Shown: positions 1,019-14,698 of the stretch, one piece after another
How positions within the stretch are numbered: position 1 is the stretch's first letter
How the letters are laid out: each line of letters begins with the position of its first letter
DNA from: a virus
IMG/VR virus record: IMGVR_UViG_3300048593_000456
Coordinates: 90,514-111,526 of that record
DNA: 21,013 bases
Reading direction: 5' to 3' (one strand)
Program-made: the position numbers and the translations under genes
Notes under the pieces: model-generated
The model's input: only the letters and a program-made list of their open reading frames with translations
What the model was told of the DNA's origin: nothing
Database searches by the model: none

Positions 1019-1711
1019 ATGAATAAGAATCATTTTTGTGTTTTCGATTTTGAAACGGGCGGCGGCGAAAATCCGTCCAAGTGCCAGATAACTCAATTAT
1101 CGGCAATTATAATTAATCCTAGAAGTTTAAGGGCAGAACCCGGAGGAATATTTGATTCCGAGGTTCAGCCCATATTTGATAACGATAAAGCTATTGCGGC
1201 GGACCTAAACCCTGTTCAGCAAGAAGCTTTAGATGTTACACGTAAGACTAAAGAAAAACTTATGGAAGCTCCACCGGAAAAAATTGTATGGGAAAAATTC
1301 AAGCAGTTTATCAAGCGATTTAATATAAAAAATAGCGTATATACCGCACCTATTCCCGTGGGATATAATATAATAAATTATGACATGCCCATTATTAATA
1401 GGTTGTGCCTGCAATACGGGCCTGCATCTAAAGATAAACAATCGATATTTAATCAATTATACAAAGTCGATTTGCTTGATTATTTTATGATGATGACTGA
1501 AAATTCGGTCAATATAACTTCCCGCAAGCTTGTTGACATGATGGATTTTATGGGAATGCCCTCTCATATGAAAGCTAACGCACACGATGGATTACACGAT
1601 GTAAAATGCACCGCTAATATTTTTATTAAGCTAATGCATTACCAGCGTGCTATTACACTAAAAACAGATTATTCCAAGGCTTTTGCCGACAGCCCTTTAT
1701 TTATAGAATAA
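1019..1711 (+). CDS. DnaQ-like DEDDh 3'-5' exonuclease (proofreading type)
   Basis: 230 residues with all three DEDDh exonuclease motifs. Exo I is FDFET (Asp10, Glu12). Exo II is GYNIINYD (Asp122). Exo III is HDGLHD (His189, Asp194), with the His-x4-Asp spacing of the epsilon subunit of DNA polymerase III. The family uses two metal ions to remove nucleotides from 3' ends. An insertion of roughly 40 residues separates Exo I from Exo II (around residues 40-90). The gene lies four bases before a DnaE-type polymerase, as a separate chain rather than fused as in PolC. This strongly suggests it is the phage's own proofreading subunit; host epsilon would then not be needed. No good Shine-Dalgarno sequence is visible before the start, so translation may be coupled to the upstream gene. 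Confident in fold and activity, less in the partner. Confidence 0.88.
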   Translation: MNKNHFCVFDFETGGGENPSKCQITQLSAIIINPRSLRAEPGGIFDSEVQPIFDNDKAIAADLNPVQQEALDVTRKTKEKLMEAPPEKIVWEKFKQFIKRFNIKNSVYTAPIPVGYNIINYDMPIINRLCLQYGPASKDKQSIFNQLYKVDLLDYFMMMTENSVNITSRKLVDMMDFMGMPSHMKANAHDGLHDVKCTANIFIKLMHYQRAITLKTDYSKAFADSPLFIE

Positions 1712-1715
1712 AAAA

Positions 1716-4700
1716 ATGACAGAATTTGTTCCTTGGGTTCCTCTACACCAACACTCAAATCTTAGCCTGCTAGACGGTTTCTCCGTTCCTAAGGATATTG
1801 CGAAGACATGTGCGAGTTATGGTTATCGGGCCGCAGCTATTACTGACCACAGAAACGTAGCCGCCCACGTAAAATTCTTTAAGGCTTGTAAAGATGCCGG
1901 TATTAAACCGATTTTAGGCTGCGAATTTGATATATCAGATGATTTGTCCACTGTTAGAACTGCGGCAAATCGCTCTACTAATCACTTAGTAGTTCTGTGT
2001 AAAAATTTGGCCGGATGGTATGAAATGCTTCGGGCCGTATCGAAAACAAACGATCCTAATTCTTTTTATTACAAGGCCCGCATATCTTTAGAAGAATGCA
2101 AAGAGTTTCTATCTAGCGGAAACCATGTAGCTATCAGCGGCCATGCCGGAAGTACAATTTGTGATATACTTTTTACTTCCACATCTGTTTACAGAAGCAA
2201 GAGTGAAGAACAAGCCCGGACATTTTTACGCGAAGACTGGGAAACAGTTCTGGAGCAACATATACAAAAGCATATTGATGTATTCGGCAAAGAGAATTTT
2301 TTTCTTGAGATTCAACTAATCGATAAAGAACATTTACCCATGACTTCCGTAACGGCTGAATGTCTAAGGTGTATGTCTCAAAAATTAAACATTAAAACAG
2401 TGGCGACCGCAGATAGTCATTACGTTCGTAAGAGCGATGCTATTTACCAAAGAATTTTGCTATGTTCTAACTTAGGACGTACCTTGCCGGGAGTCATACG
2501 AGATATCCAGAACGGAAAAGACGTTCCTCTTGGTACATTCTTCGTGTCTGATAACTATCATATTCCTACATATGCTGAAATGCAAGCATTGCACACTCAG
2601 GAAGAACTGGAGAATGCAGTTTTGATAGCGGACATGTGTGAAGAGTACGACATTCTTTCAACTCCACAATTGCCAAAATTTGATTGTCCAAACGGTATAT
2701 CTGAAATCGAATATGTAAAACAATTATGCCGTGAAGGATGGAAAAAACTTCCTTTTAAAAAACAAAAAGATCAAGTTTATATTAATCGTGTGAAGGAAGA
2801 ACTTCAAGTTATTGAGGAAGCTAATCTGGCTGGATATTTTCTTATTGTTTGGGATATCATCAGGTTTTGTAAGTCTAAAAATTGGAAAACGGGCGTGGGT
2901 AGAGGGTCGGCTGCGGGGTGTTTAATGTCATATCTTATAGGTATTACAGGTATTGATCCTATTCCGTATAATCTACTGTTCAGTAGGTTTTATAACTCCG
3001 GAAGAAAAGGTACTTTGCCAGATATTGATCTTGATATTCCGAGTCAACATAGGGATGAAATCATTCAGTATATTAAGACTAAATATGGTGAAGATAAAGT
3101 TTCACAGATGGCTACATTCTCTTCCTTAATGGGTAAGTCTGCCATGAAAGAAGTCCTACGCATTGAAGATGTTGTAACTCCAGCAGAAGCGAATGAAATC
3201 ACGGAACATATTCCCGATAAAGCAGAAATTGCCGATGAATTAGAAAACATGGAAGATGCATCTATTATTAAATGGGCATTGATTCATAGAGCAAGCAAGC
3301 TGTCTCAATGGTGTACTATCGATGAAGACGATAACTTGTCCGGGCCTTTGGCGGGATCTTTTTATAGGGCCATACAAATTGAAGGCTGTTATAAATCTCA
3401 AGGCAAGCACCCAGCGGGCGTTATTATCTCTTATAGGCCGCTACAAGAGATTTGCCCCATCGTTAGGGATAAAGACGGGGCACCCATCGCGGGCTTAGAA
3501 ATGGGCGATTTGGAGGCTTTGGGGCACGTAAAATTTGATATTCTTGGTGTGTCTATCTTAGATAAGTTAATGGATATAATTCCGCATTTGCCAGAAGGGT
3601 GTAATGTTGAAAATCTAGAAGATAAAGCGACTTGGAAAACTTTCGCAGATGGTGACGTAAAGGGTATATTTCAGCTAGAAAAACAAAAACGATGGGTTAA
3701 AAAATTAAAACCAGAAAACATTCACCATTTAGCTGCTCTAGTTTCAATTATCCGTCCGGGATGCGTTGAATCACTGGGAGAAGATGGTGTATCTATGACT
3801 CAGCACTATATCGACAGAAAAAACGGAGAAGAAGAAGTTCCAAGTATACATGAGGTTGTAGATAAGACCCTTAAGGATACATATGGAGTTTTGGTATATC
3901 AAGAAACAGCGATGTTATTGTCCAGAGATGTCGCGGGATTTACTCTGGATGAAGCCGATGAATTAAGAAAAGCTATTGGTAAAAAACGCACCGATGTTAT
4001 GGCTAAAGTAAAAGATAAATTCTTCAAAGGTTCTTCTAGAGTATCAGTTACATCAGAAGAGATTACTAAAAAAATATTTGACTGGATTGAGAAATCGCAA
4101 CGTTACAGCTTTAACGCGAGTCATGCGTACTCATATGGACACAATGCTTATTATTCCGCCTATTGTAAAACTCATAATCCGATTAAGTTCTACGAAGTCT
4201 ATCTAAATCATTCTAAAAATGGTCCCGACCGAATGGAAGAAATAAAAGATTTAGTAAATGATGCCAGACAGCATGGAATTAATGTTGTACCGCCATCTTT
4301 GAGTAATTTATATGAAAATTTTACTGCTGTTCCGGAACAAAATTCGATTGCTTTTGGATACGGGCACGTTAAAAATGTAGGTGTAAAAGAAGCAGCTAAA
4401 ATAGAAGATATAAAATCCAAACACGATGTAGAGAAATTCAATTGGATAGATATATTATGCATTTTTAATAAAATCAATAGCCTTTCAATGAATGCACTCA
4501 TCGCAGTCGGTGCTTTTAATGGTGACTATAATAAAAACAGTAGAGATAAAATGCTTTACGAATATAATACCTTTAAGGATCTTACCGATAAAGAAATATT
4601 ATTTATTAAAGAAAACGTAGAAAAGGACAAAGGTTTGCTGTATCATATAAATTTGCTTATAAATAAATATAAGCTTACAAGTAGTAGAATGGCTAAAGTT

Positions 4701-5135
4701 TTAGGAATGAAGTCGGCACTGGAAAATCCAATGTACGATATTAATGATTCTGCGGCTATGATATTACAAAAAGAGCGTTTTTATATGGGGCTTCCTCTTT
4801 CTTATTTAGGTAATGTGTCTCCGGGAAGTTATTCTTCCGATACTACATGTCTTGATGTTGTGAGCGGAAATGCTAAGGGGACGATTAATCTTATAGTTAA
4901 TATAACAAATGTTAGAGAGCATAAGGTCAAAAGCGGTAAGACGGCGGGTCAAATGATGGCTTTTATTAGTGGTGAAGATAGTACAGGATGCTTGAAGTCT
5001 ATTGTTGCTTTTCCTAAAGAATATGCAGAATATAGAGCTTTGTTAGTTGAAAATAACAACATTATGATTCAGGGATCGGTAGAATCTAGAAATGATGAAT
5101 ACTCGTTAAATGTTAGGAAAATTGTACAGGTTTAA
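1716..5135 (+). CDS. dnaE: DNA polymerase III alpha subunit (C-family, DnaE-type)
   Basis: 1139 residues, close to the length of bacterial DnaE. Domains in order: an N-terminal PHP domain (about 5-290) with HQH (His11, His13), LLDG (Asp20), TDH (Asp44, His45), GCE (Glu70), His90 and ADSH (Asp233, His235); a palm/catalytic core with GVGRGSAAG (393-401), PDIDLD (Asp436 and Asp438) and VKFDILG (third catalytic Asp608); the fingers/tandem HhH region with RPG (680-682), ELRKAIGKK (749-757) and FNASHAYSYG; and a C-terminal OB fold (about 1040-1139). It synthesises DNA at the fork. Most metal-binding positions of active PHP domains are kept; the usual Cys in the SGCxxG segment is replaced by His143. 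No visible C-terminal beta-clamp peptide. There is no clear Shine-Dalgarno before the start, only an A-rich leader. It lies between an exonuclease and an SSB-like gene, forming a replication cassette. C-family polymerases are uncommon in phages. Confidence 0.96.
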   Translation: MTEFVPWVPLHQHSNLSLLDGFSVPKDIAKTCASYGYRAAAITDHRNVAAHVKFFKACKDAGIKPILGCEFDISDDLSTVRTAANRSTNHLVVLCKNLAGWYEMLRAVSKTNDPNSFYYKARISLEECKEFLSSGNHVAISGHAGSTICDILFTSTSVYRSKSEEQARTFLREDWETVLEQHIQKHIDVFGKENFFLEIQLIDKEHLPMTSVTAECLRCMSQKLNIKTVATADSHYVRKSDAIYQRILLCSNLGRTLPGVIRDIQNGKDVPLGTFFVSDNYHIPTYAEMQALHTQEELENAVLIADMCEEYDILSTPQLPKFDCPNGISEIEYVKQLCREGWKKLPFKKQKDQVYINRVKEELQVIEEANLAGYFLIVWDIIRFCKSKNWKTGVGRGSAAGCLMSYLIGITGIDPIPYNLLFSRFYNSGRKGTLPDIDLDIPSQHRDEIIQYIKTKYGEDKVSQMATFSSLMGKSAMKEVLRIEDVVTPAEANEITEHIPDKAEIADELENMEDASIIKWALIHRASKLSQWCTIDEDDNLSGPLAGSFYRAIQIEGCYKSQGKHPAGVIISYRPLQEICPIVRDKDGAPIAGLEMGDLEALGHVKFDILGVSILDKLMDIIPHLPEGCNVENLEDKATWKTFADGDVKGIFQLEKQKRWVKKLKPENIHHLAALVSIIRPGCVESLGEDGVSMTQHYIDRKNGEEEVPSIHEVVDKTLKDTYGVLVYQETAMLLSRDVAGFTLDEADELRKAIGKKRTDVMAKVKDKFFKGSSRVSVTSEEITKKIFDWIEKSQRYSFNASHAYSYGHNAYYSAYCKTHNPIKFYEVYLNHSKNGPDRMEEIKDLVNDARQHGINVVPPSLSNLYENFTAVPEQNSIAFGYGHVKNVGVKEAAKIEDIKSKHDVEKFNWIDILCIFNKINSLSMNALIAVGAFNGDYNKNSRDKMLYEYNTFKDLTDKEILFIKENVEKDKGLLYHINLLINKYKLTSSRMAKVLGMKSALENPMYDINDSAAMILQKERFYMGLPLSYLGNVSPGSYSSDTTCLDVVSGNAKGTINLIVNITNVREHKVKSGKTAGQMMAFISGEDSTGCLKSIVAFPKEYAEYRALLVENNNIMIQGSVESRNDEYSLNVRKIVQV

Positions 5136-5137
5136 AT

Positions 5138-5431
5138 ATGAATAATTGTTATTTTGTCGGAAGAATATTAGAAGATTTAACTCTTAATGTTGAGCATGAT
5201 TGTAATGTGTGTGATTTTGTCATAGAAGTTGAAGAGAAGTGGCAAGGAAAAACTGATGGTAAAAAAAATATCATTAAAACTATGATTAACTGCACTGCTT
5301 GGGATAAAGGTGCTGACGCATTATATGCCAAACTTGTCAAGGGCGATATGATTTTTATTGAAGGCTCCTTACGTCATGACGAAGACGGAATAGATTACAT
5401 AAGAGTTAACAGTTTCAGAAAGGCATATTAA
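5138..5431 (+). CDS. SSB-like single-stranded DNA-binding protein (short, no acidic tail)
   Basis: 97 residues matching the OB-fold core of bacterial SSB. The N-terminus MNNCYFVGRI corresponds to the usual MN-x-V-x-LVGRL strand. It is followed by CDFVIEV, then MINCTAWDKGAD, equivalent to the I-x-C-x-AWxKxAE segment, and LVKGDMIFIEGSL, equivalent to KGxxVxVEG. It should coat single-stranded DNA made by the neighbouring polymerase. Bacterial SSB carries a flexible tail ending in an acidic DDIPF-like peptide that recruits partner proteins; here the protein stops at FRKAY right after the OB fold, so that recruitment function is absent. The gene begins two bases after the polymerase stop, and AGG lies just upstream. 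Its stop overlaps the next start (TAATG). PriB-like or other OB proteins are alternatives, but the match to SSB strands is good. Confidence 0.85.
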   Translation: MNNCYFVGRILEDLTLNVEHDCNVCDFVIEVEEKWQGKTDGKKNIIKTMINCTAWDKGADALYAKLVKGDMIFIEGSLRHDEDGIDYIRVNSFRKAY

Positions 5432-7065
5432 TGAAAAAAATATTGCTATGCACAGAGTTTAGCGGATTTAGTACGGGATACGGAGTTTACGGTAGAGAGC
5501 TTCTAAGCAGGCTGTCTAAACACTACGAAGTAGCTGAGCTAGGTTGTTACATAACACCTGATGATCCAAGAATGTCTAATTATCCTTGGAGGGTTTATCC
5601 GAACAAGCCTAGCGAAAACAGTCCTGATTATAATAATTATCTAGCGTCTAGTTCTTTTGAATACGGCGAATATACATTCAACAATGTATTATTAGATTTT
5701 AAACCTGACTATGTCATAGACTTTAGAGATCCTTGGGCATTTGAATATCAAAGCAGGTCGCCGTTTCGAAATTTTTACAACTGGCTTATATGTCCAACTG
5801 TAGACGCTAGACCACAAAATGCTGACTGGATGGAATTGTATGGAAATGCCGATGGTGTTTTAACATACTCTGAATTCGGCAGAAAAACTATTCTGGCTCA
5901 ATCTAGCAATATTAACGTCCTCGGAGTTGCAAGTCCTGCGGCAAGCGAAAACTACAAGCCTTTTACTATAGAAGAAAAAAATCAGTTACGGGCCTTCAAT
6001 AATATTCCTCAAGATATTTATATTCTAGGCACCGTTATGCGTAATCAGCCTAGAAAATTGTTTCCGGAATTATTTAAACTATTCAAGAGATATGTCAAAG
6101 AGTCGGGCCGTAGAGATGTTTACTTATACTGTCATACTGCATTTCCTGATGTTGGGTGGAATATTCCGGAATTATTAATGGAATCAGAATTATCCAGCAG
6201 AGTTATTTTTACTTACAAGTGTAAGACTTGTCAAAATATATCTGTGGAGCATTTTTCCGATACAGTAAAATACTGCAATAAATGCGGAAACTTTAGTAAA
6301 AATATTGCAGGCGTTAATAATAGCCTGACAGAACAAGAGCTTAACTTTGTATATAACCTATTTGATGTATATATTCAATACGCTACAAATGAGGGTTTTG
6401 GAATTCCTATAGTAGAAGCGGCTAAAGCGGGTGTTCCGGTAATGAATGTTAATTATTCTTCAATGGAAGATTTTTCACAAACGATATCTACTATACCTAT
6501 TGATGTAAAAGAATATGTTAAAGAGGCTTCTACTTCAAGATTGCTTGCAGTCCCCTGTGAAAATTCGGCAGTAGATATTTTGTTTGATTTATTCTCTCTC
6601 CCAAGAGATTACATGCATTCATCTCTTGGAAAAGCCTATCATAAATTATCTAGTGATTTTTATTCTTGGGATAAAAACGCACAGGTTTGGATCGACGCAA
6701 TCGAATCAATTCCTTTAAAGAGTAAAAAATGGAATGATCCCGTTGAAATTTTGCAGCCGGACCCTATAATGAACGTGGGCATGTCTCCGTGCGAACAGGC
6801 TGTATTTTTAATCAATAACGTTTTAAAGAAGCCGGAATTTATGTTTTCTAATTTATGGAGAAGGCTTGTTAAAGATCTTACTTATAGAAGTACAATGCCG
6901 GGCGTGGGACTATTATATTTTAATGAAAATTCATTCAAGGATAATTTAAAAGGCAGACCATTTACATTTGAAGATGCATATGAATCAATGGTTCAGCTAA
7001 GAGATTTTTATAATAAATGGGAACAGAACAGAAATGAAAGTATTGTACATAGGTCATTACGCTGA
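5431..7065 (+). CDS. GT-B (GT4-type) glycosyltransferase with inserted zinc ribbon
   Basis: 544 residues. The N-terminal Rossmann half (about 1-175) starts with KKILLCTEFSGFSTGYG, a glycine-rich opening typical of GT4 enzymes. The C-terminal half has the nucleotide-sugar site: GTVMRNQPRK (200-209) and EGFGIPIVE (Glu321 to Glu329, the E-x7-E signature). Unusually, a CxxC-x14-CxxC element (Cys264, 267, 282, 285) is inserted between these two parts, apparently a zinc ribbon. A further C-terminal extension of about 110 residues (430-544) matches nothing I recognise. The enzyme should move a sugar from an activated donor to an unknown acceptor. It opens the sugar cassette; its ATG shares one base with the SSB stop (TAATG), and AGAAAGG about nine bases upstream is the ribosome site. 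Certain as a GT4-like fold; donor and acceptor unknown. Confidence 0.88.
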   Translation: MKKILLCTEFSGFSTGYGVYGRELLSRLSKHYEVAELGCYITPDDPRMSNYPWRVYPNKPSENSPDYNNYLASSSFEYGEYTFNNVLLDFKPDYVIDFRDPWAFEYQSRSPFRNFYNWLICPTVDARPQNADWMELYGNADGVLTYSEFGRKTILAQSSNINVLGVASPAASENYKPFTIEEKNQLRAFNNIPQDIYILGTVMRNQPRKLFPELFKLFKRYVKESGRRDVYLYCHTAFPDVGWNIPELLMESELSSRVIFTYKCKTCQNISVEHFSDTVKYCNKCGNFSKNIAGVNNSLTEQELNFVYNLFDVYIQYATNEGFGIPIVEAAKAGVPVMNVNYSSMEDFSQTISTIPIDVKEYVKEASTSRLLAVPCENSAVDILFDLFSLPRDYMHSSLGKAYHKLSSDFYSWDKNAQVWIDAIESIPLKSKKWNDPVEILQPDPIMNVGMSPCEQAVFLINNVLKKPEFMFSNLWRRLVKDLTYRSTMPGVGLLYFNENSFKDNLKGRPFTFEDAYESMVQLRDFYNKWEQNRNESIVHRSLR

Positions 7066-8155
7066 TGGAACTGGTTGGGGCAATGCCGCACTCCATAACA
7101 TTATAGCTATGAACAGAATTGGAATAGATGTTATTCCAAGGAGAGTTTCATACAAGCCAGAAGAAGCACAATCAGTACCTCAAGAAATAGCAGAGCTAGA
7201 ACAAAAATCTTTGTACGGAGTAGACGTATGCGTTCAACATACATTACCGACTAATTATAGTTATTACTCCGGTAGGTCAAAAATCAGAAACATATGCATG
7301 TACGAAACTGAGACTAGCGATTTTAGATATACTCAGTGGTATAAGTATATCGATATGTTTAAAGAATGTTGGGTTCCAAATAATGATATGGTTATGGACT
7401 CATTTTTGTCCGGGGTAAAAAAATGCAAAGCAACTGTAGTTAATCATTGTATTGATGTTGATAAGTATAAAAATTTTGTACCGCAAAATGTTATAGCGGG
7501 ACTTAAAGATAAAAATGCTTATAACTTTTGTTACGTCGGGGAATTAAGTAAGAGAAAAAATGTTAAAGCTATCTTGCAGGCTTTCCATTTGGAGTTTGGT
7601 ATGCATGAGAATGTGAACTTATTTTTAAAACTTAATATGCCCGGAAAGAGTGCTAATGAAACGCTTCAAATAGCAAGCGAATTAAATAAATATGTTACTC
7701 GCGGCCTTAAAATAAGAAATAAATACAAGGAGCCGTTTGTTTTATGCGGGCACTGCGATGACAACGATCTTTTGTCTTTCATGAGTCAGTGTCATTGCTT
7801 CGTATGCGCTAGCAGTGGCGAGGCATGGTGCATTCCGGCACTAGAAGGAATGGCATTAGGTCTAGACTTAATATATACTAAAGGTACTGGTTTATCAGAA
7901 TTTGCTTTTAGTGACGCAATAGCGGTTAATAGCACGATTAGTCCCTGTACAGATGCTTTAGACACATTACTTGAAATATACACAGGTTTTGAAACATGGA
8001 GAAATATTAACATATCATGTTTACAGATGGCTATGAGACGGGCATTTTATAGAAAAAATTCTATAGATAGAGAAAAAATTAAGGGGCGTGCTTTTGAATT
8101 CGGTTACGAGAGAACCGGAAAGCAAATTATGGAGGCATTAAATGATACAAAATAA
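7034..8155 (+). CDS. GT-B (GT4-type) glycosyltransferase
   Basis: 373 residues, overlapping the preceding glycosyltransferase by 32 nt. The first strand MKVLYIGHYADGTGWGN is a standard GT-B opening, which fixes the start despite the overlap; GGGA lies upstream. The acceptor half is followed by a second Rossmann domain with YVGELSKRKN (168-176), containing the Arg/Lys that bind donor phosphates, and SSGEAWCIPALEG, which supplies the E-x7-E pair (Glu263, Glu271). Length is normal for the family. It likely transfers a hexose or related sugar; specificity cannot be read from sequence. It is one of several different, not obviously duplicated, glycosyltransferases in a row, so they probably act in sequence on one glycan. 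Confidence 0.88.
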   Translation: MKVLYIGHYADGTGWGNAALHNIIAMNRIGIDVIPRRVSYKPEEAQSVPQEIAELEQKSLYGVDVCVQHTLPTNYSYYSGRSKIRNICMYETETSDFRYTQWYKYIDMFKECWVPNNDMVMDSFLSGVKKCKATVVNHCIDVDKYKNFVPQNVIAGLKDKNAYNFCYVGELSKRKNVKAILQAFHLEFGMHENVNLFLKLNMPGKSANETLQIASELNKYVTRGLKIRNKYKEPFVLCGHCDDNDLLSFMSQCHCFVCASSGEAWCIPALEGMALGLDLIYTKGTGLSEFAFSDAIAVNSTISPCTDALDTLLEIYTGFETWRNINISCLQMAMRRAFYRKNSIDREKIKGRAFEFGYERTGKQIMEALNDTK

Positions 8156-9125
8156 AATAAGGCAATATTTAAGATCCGCAGATTTATTGAATAACGCCGA
8201 CCCGCTAAATATATTAGTTATAGGATCTACACACGAACGCTATGAACAACAATTATGTAAAACCGGACATAACTTTTTCTCAATTAATCATGGGAAGCAA
8301 TGGGATTTAAACTGCGGTGATATTCCGAAAAATTATCATATCATAGATTACATTCCCCATGATTTAAAACCCGACTTAATTTTAACTCATGTCTCCGGAG
8401 AAAGACTTGATATAGCTAATGAATACGCAAGAATTTTTAATGTAAAAGTAATACGACATACGCATACATTGCCCGAAAATGATTATGAACTAAAAGTATT
8501 CCGTTCTCAATATGCAGATTTAAATACATTCATATCTGAATACAGTAAAAATGCATGGGGTTTAAATAATCAGAAAACCGATGTTATTACACACGGAATT
8601 GACACGAGTTTTTTTTCTGATAAAAATATAGAAAGAAAAAATACAGTATTATCTGTTGTGAACAAATGGGCTAGTCGAGATTGGGCCTGCGGCTGGAAGT
8701 TATACCAAGAAATCGTTAATGGAAATAAAGATAAAACATTTATTGTTGCGGGAGATAATCCGGGTTTATCTAAACCAGCCAGTAGCACAAAGGCACTCGT
8801 TGATTTGTATAACGAATCATCTATATTTCTAAATACATCACAATTTTCTCCCGTTCCAATGGCTTTAATTGAAGCTATGGCTTGCGGCTGTGCTGTTGTG
8901 TCGAGTAATACATGCATGATACCCGAAATCATTACGCATGAATTTAACGGATTTCTAGCTAGCACGCCCGACGAATTTAATAAATACTTAACGCTATTAT
9001 ATAATAATAAAGAATTGGCCGAACAAATCGGTGCTAATGCCCGAATGACAATTTTCGAACATTACAACCTTATTAATTTTTGCCGGTCGTGGGATTCAAT
9101 TTTTAGAAAGACAATATTATCATGA
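8142..9125 (+). CDS. GT-B (GT4-type) glycosyltransferase
   Basis: 327 residues. About 20 N-terminal residues precede the first Rossmann strand (LNILVIGSTHERYE). The middle has HGIDTSFF (151-158), common after the first domain of GT4 enzymes. The donor domain contains SVVNKWASRDW, IVAGDN, then PMALIEAMACGCAVV and IPEIITHEFNGFL, one of the clearest GT4 signatures in the window. Of the E-x7-E pair, the second is Glu244; the first position (236) is Ser, a change seen in some active members of the family. It overlaps the upstream gene by 14 nt and has a strong GGAGG about nine bases before the ATG. It acts with its neighbours in glycan assembly; the sugar is unknown. Confidence 0.9.
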   Translation: MIQNKIRQYLRSADLLNNADPLNILVIGSTHERYEQQLCKTGHNFFSINHGKQWDLNCGDIPKNYHIIDYIPHDLKPDLILTHVSGERLDIANEYARIFNVKVIRHTHTLPENDYELKVFRSQYADLNTFISEYSKNAWGLNNQKTDVITHGIDTSFFSDKNIERKNTVLSVVNKWASRDWACGWKLYQEIVNGNKDKTFIVAGDNPGLSKPASSTKALVDLYNESSIFLNTSQFSPVPMALIEAMACGCAVVSSNTCMIPEIITHEFNGFLASTPDEFNKYLTLLYNNKELAEQIGANARMTIFEHYNLINFCRSWDSIFRKTILS

Positions 9126-9568
9126 AGTTATTACTAACAAGAAACCGTAAAGAAGCAATAAACGGATATGAAACCATAAGTGCTCCGCTAGCTTTAGTCA
9201 GAAACGATATAAAAAATATAGATGACATATGCTGTGATGCTGAGGCTATCAATATTAAAGTTGATAATTTTTTATCTCTATATGATTATGACGCAGTCAG
9301 AATGGTACTTCTAAAAATTTGCTCAAAACTAAGAATTGGTGGAGAGATAGTTGTAACCGATCTAGACTTTGATTTAATCGCTTATGCGTCCGGGAGAGGA
9401 TTAATTGAAGAAAAAGTTTTAAATGAATTGCTTTTTACGGAAGGTGCCTTATCATCTTTCTTTGGGTCTGAATCCATAGTGGAAACACTAACTTCGGCGG
9501 GCATTCATATTACCGAAAGATACATAGAAAACAATAGAAATTTTGTAGTAAAGGGAGTAAGATGCTAA
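9122..9568 (+). CDS. Truncated SAM-methyltransferase-like protein
   Basis: 148 residues, starting in a 4-nt ATGA overlap with the previous gene. The middle resembles the post-motif-I half of class I SAM methyltransferases: a DDICCDAEAINI segment, a helix (AVRMVLLKICSKL), then RIGGEIVVTDLDF (71-83), equivalent to the L-K-P-GG-x-L-x-I-x-D strand. The C-terminus (LTSAGIHITERYIENN) fits the last two strands. The usual glycine-rich motif I (GxGxG), which binds SAM, is absent and there is too little N-terminal sequence to hold it. It may be a shortened, non-catalytic relative, or it may take its SAM-binding part from another chain. Small methyltransferase-like genes are commonly found among glycosyltransferases, where they methylate sugars. 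Fold moderately supported; activity doubtful. Confidence 0.55.
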   Translation: MKLLLTRNRKEAINGYETISAPLALVRNDIKNIDDICCDAEAINIKVDNFLSLYDYDAVRMVLLKICSKLRIGGEIVVTDLDFDLIAYASGRGLIEEKVLNELLFTEGALSSFFGSESIVETLTSAGIHITERYIENNRNFVVKGVRC

Positions 9569-10305
9569 AGTTTGAAGTTCACTGTAAAGATTGTGTTTTT
9601 GCTGGAGTAAAAGACGGCGTTCAGAATGAATGTCTGCTGGGAAAGACGGATAGCATTGAAAATAAAGTATTAGAGGAAGGTTTCTATAAATTCGGTAGAC
9701 ACTGCAATTCTTTCAGAGATGAGCAATGGCTTAAAAATGTAGATGGCTGTCCAAAGGAAAAAGTCGCACTAGAAACAAAGGCAAGGCTCGGTGTTTGTAT
9801 TAACTTTATAGGAAGTTACGATAATGAACTGCTAAGAGAAACTGTAAAAAGTATTAATAATGCACAATACTATATAATTATTAATGACAGGCCGGAACAT
9901 AATAAAGATCTTTATGATATAGTCAAACAAGAAACTAATGTTCATCCGTCCAGAATTAATATAGTTCAAATTATCAATCAAAAACCTGAATATTATATAG
10001 ATGAAGGCTTTAATGCGGGCGGTAGAAACGGTTACTTCTGCTATGTAAACTCCGGAACGTTTTTTCCTCCTAATTTTATAGATCAATTAAACAATGTAAT
10101 AAATAATCAGATGAAGCCCGTGATGGTTTGTTATGACGGCAACTTTATACTGTTTCAATCTATGTTATTTAAATATCTAAACGGTAATAAAGCTAGAATG
10201 CTATCTGATGGATCTGTTGACAATAGAAATTTCTTGGAAAAAGCAGGTGACTTAAATTCGGAGAATAACTGCATTTTTGCTTGGGGAGAAATATTTAATG
10301 CATAA
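9562..10305 (+). CDS. Cys-cluster protein with GT-A-like domain lacking DxD
   Basis: 247 residues in two parts. Residues 1-65 hold Cys8, Cys11, Cys24, Cys48 and Cys63 in a CxxC-x12-C-x23-C pattern, suggesting a bound zinc or an iron-sulfur cluster. Residues 75-247 resemble a GT2/GT-A glycosyltransferase: RLGVCINFIGSYDNELLRETV, then GFNAGGRNGYFCYVNSG. The NxGxxxARN loop of GT2 enzymes is recognisable as FNAGGRN, but the metal-binding DxD that should follow is replaced by Asn163-Ser-Gly165. The chain is therefore either inactive, metal-independent or a regulatory subunit. It overlaps the methyltransferase-like gene by 7 nt, with AAGGGAG just upstream of the ATG, and precedes a canonical GT2 with which it might pair. 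Function not established. Confidence 0.55.
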   Translation: MLKFEVHCKDCVFAGVKDGVQNECLLGKTDSIENKVLEEGFYKFGRHCNSFRDEQWLKNVDGCPKEKVALETKARLGVCINFIGSYDNELLRETVKSINNAQYYIIINDRPEHNKDLYDIVKQETNVHPSRINIVQIINQKPEYYIDEGFNAGGRNGYFCYVNSGTFFPPNFIDQLNNVINNQMKPVMVCYDGNFILFQSMLFKYLNGNKARMLSDGSVDNRNFLEKAGDLNSENNCIFAWGEIFNA

Positions 10306-11059
10306 AGTAACGACTGTTATAGCCAACTTTAACTATGGAGACAAGTTAATTGCATGTTTAGATAGTGCTTTTAATTGTGATACTACGGGCTTTGTGCATA
10401 AAATAGTTTTAGTAGACGATGGTTCAACGGATAACTCAGTTGAGCGTGTGAAACAAGCCTTCGGACACAAATTTAAAACTGTTTATACTAAAGGTTATTT
10501 AACTATACATACTTCGGATAATTTTGATTTTATAGTTAGTCCTAACATGGGTGCTTCCGCAGCTAGAAATACAGCAATTAAACATAGCTGGAACAATACT
10601 GAATTCTTTCACATTTTAGATTCTGACGACAAAATGACTGATAGTAAAATCGTGAAAATGCTTGAAAAAATGGAGCATCCGGAAGTAGGTGTTGTCTATG
10701 CAGATTATATCATAAAACGCCCTCTGTATTCAAAAATAGAGTTTAAATATCCTTACGATCAAAACCATTTAAAGCATGAGTGTATAGTCCATAGTGGATC
10801 TCTAATTAGAAAGCATTATTTGAATTTAGTTAAATTTTCCAATGGAGATATTTATGACATAAATTTACACGGACCCGCTAGCACTACTTTTATAGGATGC
10901 ACTGAGGATTATGATCTTTGGCTTAGATTGTCAAATGTATGTGTTATGGTTCATATTCCAGAAACACTAAGTATCGTAAGTGAGCACGGTAATAACCAGT
11001 CAATGAAAATGAGTAATGAAATTTATAAAAAAAACATGGAGTACATACAAACAAGATGA
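10298..11059 (+). CDS. GT-A (GT2 family) glycosyltransferase
   Basis: 253 residues from the ATG at 10298. Canonical GT2 motifs: VTTVIANFNYGDKLIACLDS, VLVDDGSTDNS (Asp40-Asp41, nucleotide binding), NMGASAARNTAIK (83-95), and the metal-binding ILDSDD (Asp108, Asp110, Asp111). A later ED (TEDYDLWLR) is the usual catalytic-base region. It should use a nucleotide sugar with an inverting mechanism. The frame also opens with a TTG at 10277, but GGGGAG at 10283-10288 is correctly spaced for the ATG at 10298, and that start aligns with the first beta strand. The gene overlaps the previous one by 8 nt (ATGCATAA) and ends in a 4-nt overlap with the next. Among the best-supported enzymes in the cassette. 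Confidence 0.9.
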   Translation: MHKVTTVIANFNYGDKLIACLDSAFNCDTTGFVHKIVLVDDGSTDNSVERVKQAFGHKFKTVYTKGYLTIHTSDNFDFIVSPNMGASAARNTAIKHSWNNTEFFHILDSDDKMTDSKIVKMLEKMEHPEVGVVYADYIIKRPLYSKIEFKYPYDQNHLKHECIVHSGSLIRKHYLNLVKFSNGDIYDINLHGPASTTFIGCTEDYDLWLRLSNVCVMVHIPETLSIVSEHGNNQSMKMSNEIYKKNMEYIQTR

Positions 11060-11724
11060 CCACAAACTTTTTATCGCTAGCGGCCAGTATAGGCAAAAGA
11101 ATAAAATCTAAAGAGCCTAGAGCAGCACTTTCTATTCGCGGAGTCCCAGTTGTATTGCGACAGTATTTTACAATTAGAAATAACTTTATAAAAGATGAAG
11201 ATTTCGCTTTTACTGTAATAGCCGGATATAAGCCCGGAAAAATTAAACGTGTCATAAAAGGATACGAAGACATCAAAATATTGATTAATGAAAATCACGC
11301 CAGTACAAATCAAGCCGAAAGCATTAGAATTTACTTGAAAGATAACAAAGTGGATAACTTGATTATTTTTCATGGAGACTTGCTTTTTATTGATGCCCCA
11401 ATGCCTAAAGAGGAATCTACATGCTTCTACGATGGATCATACGATTTTAGGCAGGATGAAGTGGGGGTCAACATACAAGATGGATATGTAAACAACTTAT
11501 CATATGGATTAGAAACAAAGTGGTCCCAAATGCTTTATTTAACAGGCAAGGAGCTTGATTTATTATATTCAATATGCGAAGCACCAAACTTTAAAAGTTA
11601 TTTCATGACATTTGAATTAATTAACCAAATCATCGCTTTGGGCGGAAAATTTAAAGCGGTGCCTCATATTGGCACTATAAACGAAATAGATTCGCTTGAA
11701 GATATTAATAACCTAGAGGGCTAA
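11056..11724 (+). CDS. Sugar nucleotidyltransferase-like protein (MobA/GlmU-type, divergent)
   Basis: 222 residues resembling the Rossmann-like NTP-transferase fold that makes nucleotide sugars (LicC, GlmU, MobA relatives). The opening LSLAASIGKRI (7-16) corresponds to the LAAGxGxRL loop, PRAALSIRGVPVV (21-33) to PKxLxxxxGxPLL, and NENHASTNQAESI (78-90) to the Ny-x-tN-x-Sl segment. LIIFHGDLLF (102-111) carries the metal-binding Asp108. Two normally conserved residues differ: a Gly of the nucleotide loop is Ser11, and the PK lysine is Arg22. The protein may make an activated sugar or alcohol-phosphate for its neighbours, or may have lost activity. Start in an ATGA overlap, with no well-placed ribosome site, suggests coupled translation. 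Fold well supported; activity uncertain. Confidence 0.68.
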   Translation: MTTNFLSLAASIGKRIKSKEPRAALSIRGVPVVLRQYFTIRNNFIKDEDFAFTVIAGYKPGKIKRVIKGYEDIKILINENHASTNQAESIRIYLKDNKVDNLIIFHGDLLFIDAPMPKEESTCFYDGSYDFRQDEVGVNIQDGYVNNLSYGLETKWSQMLYLTGKELDLLYSICEAPNFKSYFMTFELINQIIALGGKFKAVPHIGTINEIDSLEDINNLEG

Positions 11725-12744
11725 ATGAGAATACTTATAAGTAATGATGGAATGCACGCCCACTTTTTTGAACGAATGGCATGGGCTAACGCATTTAAAG
11801 CTTCCGGAATTGAGTGTGTTGTTTATAACTGCAAAACACTTAGAGCATTTGATGTATTCGATAAATTTCAGCCGGATATTTTTATTGGACAGTTGTACAA
11901 TCTTGACCGGGCTACAATTAAGTGCATATCCGAAAGACCGCACTTAAAAGTAGCTTTACGCGCAGGTGAATATAGAAATGAAAAAATGCCACCGGAGATA
12001 TTACAAACAACTGGTGCGGATTTAAAAAATCTGAATGAATTGATTGAAAATCATGGACTTCCAAGTTTTATATATACTCACTATTTTCAACAAGACATTG
12101 AAGATACGCACCATTTGTTTAAGGATAAATTCGGAATAAAGCTTACGGGCGTTCCTATGTCGGGAGACATTCTGGCGTATGGCAATGCTGAATTCAAAGA
12201 CTATTTACAGTGCGATATAGGATTCGTCGGGGGTTATTGGCCATACAAGGGTAGAATCATAGATCAATATTTAACTAGAATACTTAACGACTTTAGATTT
12301 CACGTTAAGATTTTTGGCAATCAATTGTGGCCGCATGTTAATCAGTATTGCGGAGTTCTTAATGACGAAGATGTAAAAAACCTATTTGTTTCAGCCAAGA
12401 TATGCCCTAATTTAAGTGAGCCTCACTCACATACCTATGGTATCGATGTTAATGAAAGAGCCTTTAAGGTTCTAGCTGCGGGCGGATTTTGTATTATGGA
12501 TAATGTAAAGCGTGCTAAGGAAATATTCAAAGATGGTGTTGTATTCGTAGATAGCGATGCAGGATTTGAAGAAGCTGTTGAATACTTCGTCATGGAATCT
12601 AACACCGAACAAAGAATGGAAATAGCTAGGAAGGGTCATGAAATTGTTATGAAAGAGCATACAAACTTTCATCGGGCCAGTACAATACTGGAAAATTTTG
12701 GCGAACACTCACATGCCGATAATATATTAAAGGGCTTACAATGA
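11725..12744 (+). CDS. CgeB-like glycosyltransferase
   Basis: 339 residues. The first strand is MRILISNDGMHAHFFERMAW, and the N-terminal half contains DVFDKFQPDIFIGQLYNL, as in GT-B proteins related to spore-maturation protein CgeB. The C-terminal domain has CDIGFVGGYWPYKGR (163-177), FHVKIFGN, then NERAFKVLAAGGFCIMDN (243-260) with Glu244 at the donor-ribose position, and VVFVDSDAGFEEAVEYF. The family ends with an EQRMEIARKGHEIV helix, also present. It probably transfers a sugar onto a polymer or protein. It begins immediately after the previous stop, with GAGGG about six bases upstream. Full length for the family; donor unknown. Confidence 0.82.
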   Translation: MRILISNDGMHAHFFERMAWANAFKASGIECVVYNCKTLRAFDVFDKFQPDIFIGQLYNLDRATIKCISERPHLKVALRAGEYRNEKMPPEILQTTGADLKNLNELIENHGLPSFIYTHYFQQDIEDTHHLFKDKFGIKLTGVPMSGDILAYGNAEFKDYLQCDIGFVGGYWPYKGRIIDQYLTRILNDFRFHVKIFGNQLWPHVNQYCGVLNDEDVKNLFVSAKICPNLSEPHSHTYGIDVNERAFKVLAAGGFCIMDNVKRAKEIFKDGVVFVDSDAGFEEAVEYFVMESNTEQRMEIARKGHEIVMKEHTNFHRASTILENFGEHSHADNILKGLQ

Positions 12745-13217
12745 AAATAGCATCAGTTGTAGAAAATCTTTCTCTTAACCAGAGTAATTTTTTCATGACT
12801 AAAACATTTAACAGGCTGGGTGAACACGGAATAGAGCCATTTTGTTTTTACGGAGATCTTACGGCCACCGGAATAAAACCTAATTTTGCCATTATGAATG
12901 TTTATTATTTAAATAACTTTTATAACGGAATCATTATATGCAATACTATTAATACCCTAAAGATATTAAAAACTATTAATACTAATGCCCGTAAAATGTT
13001 TTATGTTTGGGACTTAGAATGGCTAAGGCTAAATAAGTCGGGAGTTCTCAATTACAAAGAAACTGTAGATATTTTGTGTAATCATAATATAGAGTTAATA
13101 GCTAGATCTGAAAATCATGCAAGTGCTATTAAGAACTATTGTAACCGAAAGGTTGATTATATTATCAGTGATTGGAATATAGATGAAATAAGAGGACTTT
13201 ATGACAGAAGACGTTAA
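12741..13217 (+). CDS. Small protein resembling an N-terminal GT-B half
   Basis: 158 residues, starting in an ATGA overlap with the CgeB-like gene and preceded by AAAGGG. It opens with a Rossmann-type strand (KIASVVENLSL), has GIIICNT and ARKMFYVWDLEWLR in the middle, and ELIARSENHASAIKNYC near the end, an order of strands and helices like the acceptor half of GT-B enzymes. The donor-binding half is missing. It could be a stand-alone small family that pairs with the CgeB-like protein, or a glycosyltransferase cut short when the endonuclease gene next to it arrived; the last residues (YDRRR) are read through the 17 nt shared with that gene. I do not assign an activity. Confidence 0.55.
   Translation: MKIASVVENLSLNQSNFFMTKTFNRLGEHGIEPFCFYGDLTATGIKPNFAIMNVYYLNNFYNGIIICNTINTLKILKTINTNARKMFYVWDLEWLRLNKSGVLNYKETVDILCNHNIELIARSENHASAIKNYCNRKVDYIISDWNIDEIRGLYDRRR
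13190..13196 (+). promoter_or_regulatory. Strong ribosome binding site of the endonuclease gene
   Basis: AAGAGGA ends four bases before the ATG at 13201. It is inside the coding sequence of the upstream small GT-B-like gene and is one of the strongest such sites on the plus strand. The same heptamer precedes two minus-strand genes (16517-16523 and 16926-16932). It supports the start at 13201. Confidence 0.7.
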
Positions 13218-13983
13218 TTTTAAAATGAAGGAAGACTATGAAACTGGTTTAAGTATGGGCGAAATAGCAAAAAAATATAAGCGAAGCCAAACTACCGTTC
13301 ATAGAATATTTAAAAAGATGGGTGTTCACATTAGAAGTGCATCAGAGGCTCAAAAATTAGCCCTAGCAACTGGCCGTTCTAAGAACCCGACAGCAGGAGT
13401 TGGTCATAGTGTAGAGGCCAAGGTTGCCATGAGCGACAAAGCGGCTAATAGGTGGGCTAGAATGACTGATGCGGACAGAGACAAGTTCAAAGCTGCCGCA
13501 AAGGAGCGTTGGTCTAAATTAAGCGATTTCGATAAAAAAGAAATGCTTAGACTTGCCGGTGTTGCCCTACGAAGAGTTGCTACAGAAGGCTCTGAAATAG
13601 AACAGTATTTAGAAGGAGCTTTGGTTAAAGAAGGTTTTGTTGTACTGAAACACGTAAAGAATTTTATGGGTGGAGAATACGAAATCGACCTTCTTTTAAA
13701 GGATGAAGGTATTGCTATAGAACTAGACGGGCCGCATCACTTTCTGCCTATCTTCGGAGAAGAAAGACTAGAAAAAACAATGCGTTTCGATGCGGCGAAA
13801 AACGGTAGTCTTATAGGAATGGGATTAACAATTGTACGTGTTAAATGTATGTATAAAAATTTAACAGAAAAAATGAAAAGAGATACGTTATCTCTTATAG
13901 TGGAAAGCGTAAGGAAAATTCGTGCTGGCGAAGTTACCAGTAAACTTGTAGAGGTTGAATTAAGCAATGGGAAAGAAGATTGA
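13201..13983 (+). CDS. HTH + Vsr/PD-(D/E)XK endonuclease (probable free-standing homing endonuclease)
   Basis: 260 residues. Residues 10-45 form a resolvase-type helix-turn-helix (GLSMGEIAKKYKRSQTTVHR). Residues 50-128 are basic and helical, like the NUMOD-type DNA-binding linkers of homing endonucleases. Residues 130-240 look like a Vsr/DUF559/RAP-type nuclease core: Glu132/Glu134 in a helix, EYEIDLLL (Asp163), AIELDGPHHF (Glu174, Asp176, His179, His180), a helix with Asp197, then IVRVKC. The arrangement resembles the EDxHD homing endonucleases described from phage introns. Such enzymes cut DNA site-specifically and spread their own gene; some nick mismatched DNA. It overlaps both neighbours by exactly 17 nt, as expected for a gene inserted compactly between two others. 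The cleavage site and exact subfamily are unknown. Confidence 0.75.
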   Translation: MTEDVNFKMKEDYETGLSMGEIAKKYKRSQTTVHRIFKKMGVHIRSASEAQKLALATGRSKNPTAGVGHSVEAKVAMSDKAANRWARMTDADRDKFKAAAKERWSKLSDFDKKEMLRLAGVALRRVATEGSEIEQYLEGALVKEGFVVLKHVKNFMGGEYEIDLLLKDEGIAIELDGPHHFLPIFGEERLEKTMRFDAAKNGSLIGMGLTIVRVKCMYKNLTEKMKRDTLSLIVESVRKIRAGEVTSKLVEVELSNGKED

Positions 13984-14698
13984 AGCTGTTGTAGGAAGTG
14001 ATGTTATCGCTAGCGAAACTCCTGAGTATGGTTCGGAGGGGTGGGATTCATACGTAATGTCATTATTTAAACCCGAGGAATTAATTGATGGTAAACCGCG
14101 ATGCGTAGGGCTTAGGCGTGTTGGACGTACAGTGCTCGGAGACCCCGTTTTTACCGGACCTATTCACGTATCTCCTGCCACCGATAATGATGGTCCGGGG
14201 CGAGCCACGGTTGTATACCAGATGGTGTTTAAGTTTGCTGATGGACAGCGTACATTCGGTGATGTTGCTGACGTTTGGCACGGTAATACCGACGACATGT
14301 TTGCGGCCCACCCTGTAGCTTGTGCGTCCACCAAAGCAGAAGCCCGTTGTTGGCGTAAGGCTTTATTAATCAGTGCTGTTTCGGCGGAAGAGTTAACAAT
14401 TAAAGATACGGCCTCTATAGTAAGGGATTTAGTATCCAAGTCTGTTAAAGTTGGAGCCGTAACAAATGGGGAAATTAATGACTCGGACAAAATGAGTGAT
14501 CAGCAACGTAACCTGATTAGTATCAAGTGTAAGCAGCTTAATGTCGATCCTAGAAATCTTGCTGGTTGCGATAAGCCCGAAAAATGGACCAAAAAGTTTG
14601 CTTCTTCGTTAATCACTAAGATCAACGAGGCTCAGCAAACAGGAGTTCCTGCGGAAGTATCCGGGTTTAGTTATAACCCCAACTGGTTTAGTCTATAG
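13967..14698 (+). CDS. Putative single-strand annealing / recombination protein
   Basis: 243 residues. The N-terminal domain (about 22-145) has PEELIDGKPRCVGLRRVGR, a strand series ending in VVYQMVFKFADGQ, and VACASTKAEARCWRKALLI, resembling the A-x-T-x-A-x-x-R-x-x-x-K/R-A-L helix of Rad52/Sak/Erf-type annealing proteins. The C-terminal piece (175-222: MSDQQRNLISIKCKQLNV to WTKKFASSLITKI) resembles the small C-terminal domain often found in phage annealing proteins. Such proteins coat and pair complementary single strands during phage recombination. The gene is more G+C-rich than its surroundings: I count 34 G/C in the 60 bases at 14281-14340, against 11 of 60 at 12901-12960. GAGG lies 12 bases before the ATG. 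Family assignment is from pattern likeness only; an unknown conserved phage protein is the alternative. Confidence 0.55.
   Translation: MGKKIEAVVGSDVIASETPEYGSEGWDSYVMSLFKPEELIDGKPRCVGLRRVGRTVLGDPVFTGPIHVSPATDNDGPGRATVVYQMVFKFADGQRTFGDVADVWHGNTDDMFAAHPVACASTKAEARCWRKALLISAVSAEELTIKDTASIVRDLVSKSVKVGAVTNGEINDSDKMSDQQRNLISIKCKQLNVDPRNLAGCDKPEKWTKKFASSLITKINEAQQTGVPAEVSGFSYNPNWFSL

Follow-up and report, generated by a model that had tools for sequence, protein, structure and literature searches.

The window, that is, the whole 21 kb stretch of DNA analysed here, is the terminal part (positions 90514-111526) of a virus record of 111,526 bp. Nine ORFs, designated g1 to g9, occupy positions 5431-13217 of the window on one strand, with neighbours overlapping by 1-32 nt and a single junction with an overlap of 0. 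They continue a gene run on the plus strand that opens with a DnaQ-like 3'-5' exonuclease (EXO, 1019..1711; Pfam RNase_T, 1.5e-7; PHROG exonuclease subunit, 8e-24), which is a conserved upstream neighbour. This is followed by a DnaE-type DNA polymerase III alpha (POL, 1716..5135; Pfam DNA_pol3_alpha, 8.3e-68) and a single-stranded DNA-binding protein (SSB, 5138..5431; Pfam SSB, 2.2e-11), the stop of which shares 1 nt with the start codon of g1. A protein with a helix-turn-helix (HTH) and an endonuclease-like match (13201..13983; HTH_58, 6.6e-6; PHROG HNH endonuclease, 3.6e-7) forms the conserved right flank together with h2 (13967..14698), a conserved protein with no family match. From EXO through the cassette to h2 the run is continuous, with gaps of no more than 4 nt. 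The nine-gene cassette of the preliminary description was confirmed as a series of same-strand, overlapping ORFs that continues the POL-SSB run. Cassette, exonuclease, polymerase, SSB, HTH-endonuclease and conserved protein constitute one predicted operon, the genes of which are probably cotranscribed.

POL is a single ORF of 1139 aa in the clade to which the window belongs; most relatives (L007-L035, L072-L153) have two ORFs in its place, and the exonuclease gene usually separates them. In locus L005, POL contains an internal ORF of 278 aa.

Products of the cassette genes

Five of the nine ORFs (g1, g2, g3, g6 and g8) reached the Pfam glycosyltransferase cut-off. The first three, g1 (5431..7065; 4.7e-6), g2 (7034..8155; 9.2e-12) and g3 (8142..9125; 4.7e-20), all matched Glycos_transf_1 and are predicted GT4 glycosyltransferases, in keeping with the threefold GT4 assignment made previously. 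The GT4 E-x7-E motif of g1, the marker gene of the lineage, corresponds to E321/E329 and was invariant in an alignment of 14 members; g2 retains the motif (E263/E271) and g3 has lost its first Glu. The g1 product further carries a zinc-ribbon-like insert (C-x2-C...C-x2-C) and a C-terminal extension, and its profile weakly matched the chlorella virus glycosyltransferase B736L (3.7e-4). A predicted GT2 glycosyltransferase with a DSD motif is encoded by g6 (10298..11059; Glycos_transf_2, 1e-16), again as first proposed, for which a start at the ATG at 10298 is more likely than one at the TTG at 10277. A GT-B transferase is predicted for g8 (11725..12744; Glyco_trans_1_2, 1.2e-19), Glyco_trans_1_2 being the one family matched where a CgeB-like protein had first been described. 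The product of g7 (11056..11724) has a LicC-like sugar/alditol-phosphate nucleotidyltransferase fold (1jyk profile, 1.6e-12; model TM 0.81), which agrees with its earlier description as nucleotidyltransferase-like. The alignment shows the GxGxR...PK signature of this family to be intact in several relatives, with PK changed to PR in the window copy and its clade.

The remaining three products had been described as a methyltransferase-like stub (g4), a DxD-less GT-A (g5) and half of a GT-B (g9). Searches of g4 (9122..9568) against Pfam, PHROGs and PDB profiles yielded no family or structural match and lend no support to a methyltransferase; the gene encodes a small conserved family, present in 14 of the 17 cassettes that reach the HTH-endonuclease gene. 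Alignment and a predicted model searched with Foldseek point to a degenerate GT-A/GT2-like fold for g5 (9562..10305), the N-terminus of which has four invariant Cys in the alignment. A PDB profile search with g5 gave no convincing match, and its GT-A assignment draws weak support from a model of pLDDT 76 and a Foldseek match at E 3e-5 with TM 0.40-0.46. Of the six or more distinct glycosyltransferases originally counted, five are thus assigned by Pfam (three GT4, one GT2 and one Glyco_trans_1_2) and the sixth, g5, corresponds to this weak fold match. An alignment of 9 sequences identified g9 (12741..13217) as a conserved stand-alone family of approximately 150-160 aa that closes the cassette at its 3' end, rather than a broken GT-B; no convincing match was obtained for it by PDB profile search.

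Conserved core and exchangeable region among relatives

The carriers of the cassette belong to an uncultured and widespread lineage of large aquatic viruses represented by hundreds of metagenome contigs. A profile search with g1 detected relatives in at least 568 viral contigs, the best 80 of which were retrieved for locus comparison. A total of 101 g1 loci were compared, mostly fragments, from which near-duplicates had been removed by inspection rather than by a clustering threshold. In every one of the 101, POL or SSB was located upstream of g1 at a distance of no more than four genes, a neighbourhood that is partly built in for those loci found via the polymerase; the 80 loci found via g1 alone, which provide an independent test, exhibited the identical gene order. 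The order EXO-POL-SSB-g1..g8 is kept among relatives. Most of the 101 loci stop short of the 3' boundary of the cassette, and in the 17 that extend to the right flank (HTH-endonuclease) g1, g2 and g7 were present without exception. Distances between g1-g8 sequences correlated with those between EXO sequences, with Mantel r values of 0.67-0.88 (p = 0.001; shared ancestry handled by permutation only), including 0.85 for g1, 0.875 for g2, 0.82 for g3 and 0.84 for g7 (each p = 0.001). The preliminary description had asked for gene order to be compared in related phages and had regarded scattered, independently gained genes as evidence against its reading. The order proved to be conserved, and divergence of the core parallels that of the replication genes, so that independent gain does not describe the core.

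In the relatives, interchangeable genes for nucleotide-sugar enzymes and transferases take the place of the region between g8 and g9 or lengthen it, and the arrays, where they could be followed, close with g9, the HTH-endonuclease and h2. The retrieved loci contained 226 such variable genes, forming 66 clusters once four longer arrays were included, the commonest of which encodes a GDP-L-fucose-synthase-like SDR (44 loci). The richest array, that of G008, encodes RmlA, RmlB, FdtA, KDO-8-P synthase, a PseF-like cytidylyltransferase, a GT29 sialyltransferase and a C-methyltransferase; in G007 a DegT aminotransferase and a formyltransferase are encoded between g1 and g2. The cassette therefore consists of a fixed core and an exchangeable part, resembling an O-antigen locus. 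With this 3' part exchanged between relatives, the type of sugar would be expected to vary while the core and its position stay. Contiguous glycosyltransferase genes accompanied by nucleotide-sugar and methyltransferase genes, the gene content expected of a phage-borne polysaccharide cluster of the P-SSM2 type, are found here, with the nucleotide-sugar and FkbM genes residing in the arrays of the relatives.

No match to the cassette was found among named phages by blastn, nor to g7 or g8 by tblastn. Phages S-CBS4 and S-EIV1 were considered as relatives of the cassette on the basis of tblastn with g1 and were rejected, the match being weak and the gene neighbourhoods unlike that of the cassette. 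A full-text literature search, with most subscription journals outside its scope, returned no earlier description of the lineage. Contigs with g1 relatives that derive from metagenome-assembled genomes (MAGs) were binned with five unrelated groups, and for this reason no host is proposed. Two contigs assigned to one SAR202 MAG (L070 and L074) carry the g1 locus, possibly a hint at the host or possibly the result of binning contamination.

A GDP-mannose dehydratase gene outside the window

The record IMGVR_UViG_3300042349_000541 (G001) is 99% identical to the window in g1 and the polymerase. It both starts and stops within g3 with an exact end overlap of 127 bp, and is most simply explained as a complete circular map of approximately 168.7 kb. 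Its minus strand bears a tail gene (PhageMin_Tail) and a gene at 46335-49475 (L055:8335-11475) for a terminase-like protein that contains intein splicing and LAGLIDADG domains; the terminase match is weak (E 1e-3) and the assignment is based partly on position. Adjoining the terminase-like gene on this virion strand, outside the window, is a gene for GDP-mannose 4,6-dehydratase (GMD). Orthologues with 44-48% identity were present in G004, G005, G007, G008 and G013, and in all six records GMD lies on the strand opposite the cassette. G005 and G013 have the full set of surrounding sigma-like, HTH, ERCC4-nuclease and terminase genes, and G007 and G008 have part of it; in the short stretch of G004, GMD alone was seen. 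Sugar-nucleotide genes outside the window, which the preliminary description had suggested be sought, are accordingly present. Together with the nucleotide-sugar pathways that the relatives add to the array, GMD supports the original proposal that the locus builds a multi-sugar structure.

Two further genes of the window-clade record G000 are located away from the cassette, namely a GT4 gene (28508-29641) and a weakly GT4-like gene (27126-28040; L047, 27126-29641). The same record encodes an RlaP-type RNA repair nucleotidyltransferase at 52258-53157 (L048:14258-15157; Pfam, 3.4e-22).

Known systems and the probable acceptor of the glycan

The nearest described kind of locus is the 'LPS' cluster of Prochlorococcus phage P-SSM2 (PSSM2_258-271, 308-314), where a lytic phage likewise carries a run of glycosyltransferase genes with a methyltransferase and nucleotide-sugar epimerases, and where the proteins checked are similarly devoid of TM segments. 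P-SSM2 possesses homologues of the FkbM methyltransferase and epimerase of the variable region of the lineage, but not of its core: homologues of g1, g2, g4, g5, g7, g8 and g9 are lacking from the cluster and g3 and g6 have generic glycosyltransferase matches only. The P-SSM2 cluster is moreover situated near the tail-fibre genes of a T4-like phage, whereas the cassette is part of a DnaE-SSB gene run. Moraphages are large aquatic phages with four core glycosyltransferase orthogroups (PMC12619734). They carry a family B polymerase rather than DnaE, and membership of the same lineage was judged unlikely on this difference in polymerase type, as opposed to a sequence comparison.

For the mechanism proposed below, the nearest known counterpart is the glycosylation of chlorovirus capsids. 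Chloroviruses encode their own GMD, fucose synthase and at least eight glycosyltransferases, and their capsid protein is glycosylated in the cytoplasm (PMC7019647). Chlorovirus PBCV-1 shares with the lineage the virus-coded GMD/fucose synthase and glycosyltransferases, with cytoplasmic action in PBCV-1 and a lineage known from its genes. PBCV-1 is a eukaryotic virus, however, and its genes are not known to be arranged in an operon with those for replication.

Bacterial O-antigen and capsule loci resemble the lineage in having conserved ends and an exchangeable middle of sugar genes. Such loci normally encode a flippase, an initiating transferase and polytopic membrane proteins. Searches for the initiating sugar-phosphate transferase (Bac_transf, PF02397) and the Wzx-type flippase (Polysacc_synt, PF01943) found neither family in any of 11 records, with positive controls giving matches. 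By a simple hydropathy scan, none of 819 cassette proteins was polytopic and two had a single weak TM-like segment. These absences argue against self-contained surface export by the lineage, but not against the borrowing of the host's export machinery.

The acceptor of the glycan was weighed in the light of these observations. Remodelling of the host surface, as proposed for P-SSM2, would divert lipid-linked O-antigen or capsule precursors to the phage transferases at an early stage of infection and thereby prevent superinfection. The precedent of the 24-gene 'LPS' set of P-SSM2 and its published interpretation (PMC2984593; PMC7824862) speaks for it, as do the variable genes held in common with that phage (FkbM methyltransferase, 45.6% identity; epimerase, 46.5%), the O-antigen-like sugar genes of the relatives and a co-expression with early or replication genes suggested by gene spacing. 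Set against the missing flippase and initiating transferase families and cassettes without a polytopic membrane protein, this explanation appears rather unlikely. A glycan chain attached to a modified base, shielding phage DNA from nucleases, would fit a cassette that shares its run with polymerase, exonuclease and SSB and that follows POL or SSB at every locus compared; phage glycosyltransferases are, according to the citation of Pyle et al. (2024) in PMC12619734, able to glycosylate DNA with diverse glycans. A gene of the thymidylate synthase family, at 68095-69030 of G000 (L049), could be seen in the same light, and occurs in just the two window-clade records, G000 and G001, among 22 searched. 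Its product nonetheless resembles an ordinary thymidylate synthase (scoring above the TIGR03284 cut-off), and the gene was not found in the cassette-bearing records of 161-230 kb, which are possibly incomplete. The C5-methyltransferase family DNA_methylase (PF00145) was likewise not detected in G001, G004 or G005. Searches for Tet_JBP and HMUDK_hel yielded no matches, including none to Tet/JBP in G001, with the controls equally silent. We consider DNA glycosylation improbable. Least probable is a soluble or secreted product, such as a nucleotide-sugar drain or a small glycoside formed without any macromolecular glycan. Enzymes without membrane proteins and a core that includes the predicted nucleotidyltransferase g7 are compatible with such a product; a series of three GT4, a GT2 and another GT-B that is conserved together with the replication genes suggests instead a chain built on an acceptor.

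The explanation preferred here, to which we assign a probability of about 0.5, is that a multi-sugar glycan is assembled in the cytoplasm and placed, most likely, on virion proteins. The cassette would form the fixed core of a phage locus for glycan biosynthesis whose soluble transferases are encoded with the replisome genes. Nucleotide sugars would be supplied by the host as well as by phage genes, these being GMD and, in relatives, fucose synthase-like, Rml, KDO/CMP-sugar and amino-sugar genes. The soluble transferases would then build the chain in the cytoplasm, and g1 and g2 with their partners may transfer it to the virion. Catalytic activity is predicted from the protein families, and virion proteins emerge as the likeliest acceptor by elimination and from the position of GMD beside the terminase on the virion strand. 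The preliminary description held that the location of the cassette favours DNA or the host surface over the capsid. This now seems less well founded: no enzyme providing a base handle was found with the cassette in the searches above, those for Tet_JBP and HMUDK_hel having had silent controls, no export genes were found among the families and proteins screened, and GMD lies beside the terminase. Capsid or tail proteins are therefore no less likely targets than DNA or the host surface. Against glycosylation of the virion, a location in the replisome operon suits DNA modification equally, and soluble transferases could feed host lipid-linked glycans through host flippases. In addition, the window clade has another residue in place of the catalytic Lys of g7, and g3, g4 and g5 have a degenerate appearance.

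More tentatively, the lineage may possess a serotype-like locus, with a core in the replication operon and an exchangeable nucleotide-sugar region, that glycosylates the phage's own virions in the manner of chlorovirus capsid glycosylation. If this is correct, a widespread group of phages would make its own diversifiable glycan coat. The gene set allows the action of phage glycan loci on virion, host or DNA to be tested, a question that has stood since P-SSM2, and g1 provides a marker for the lineage in at least 568 viral contigs.
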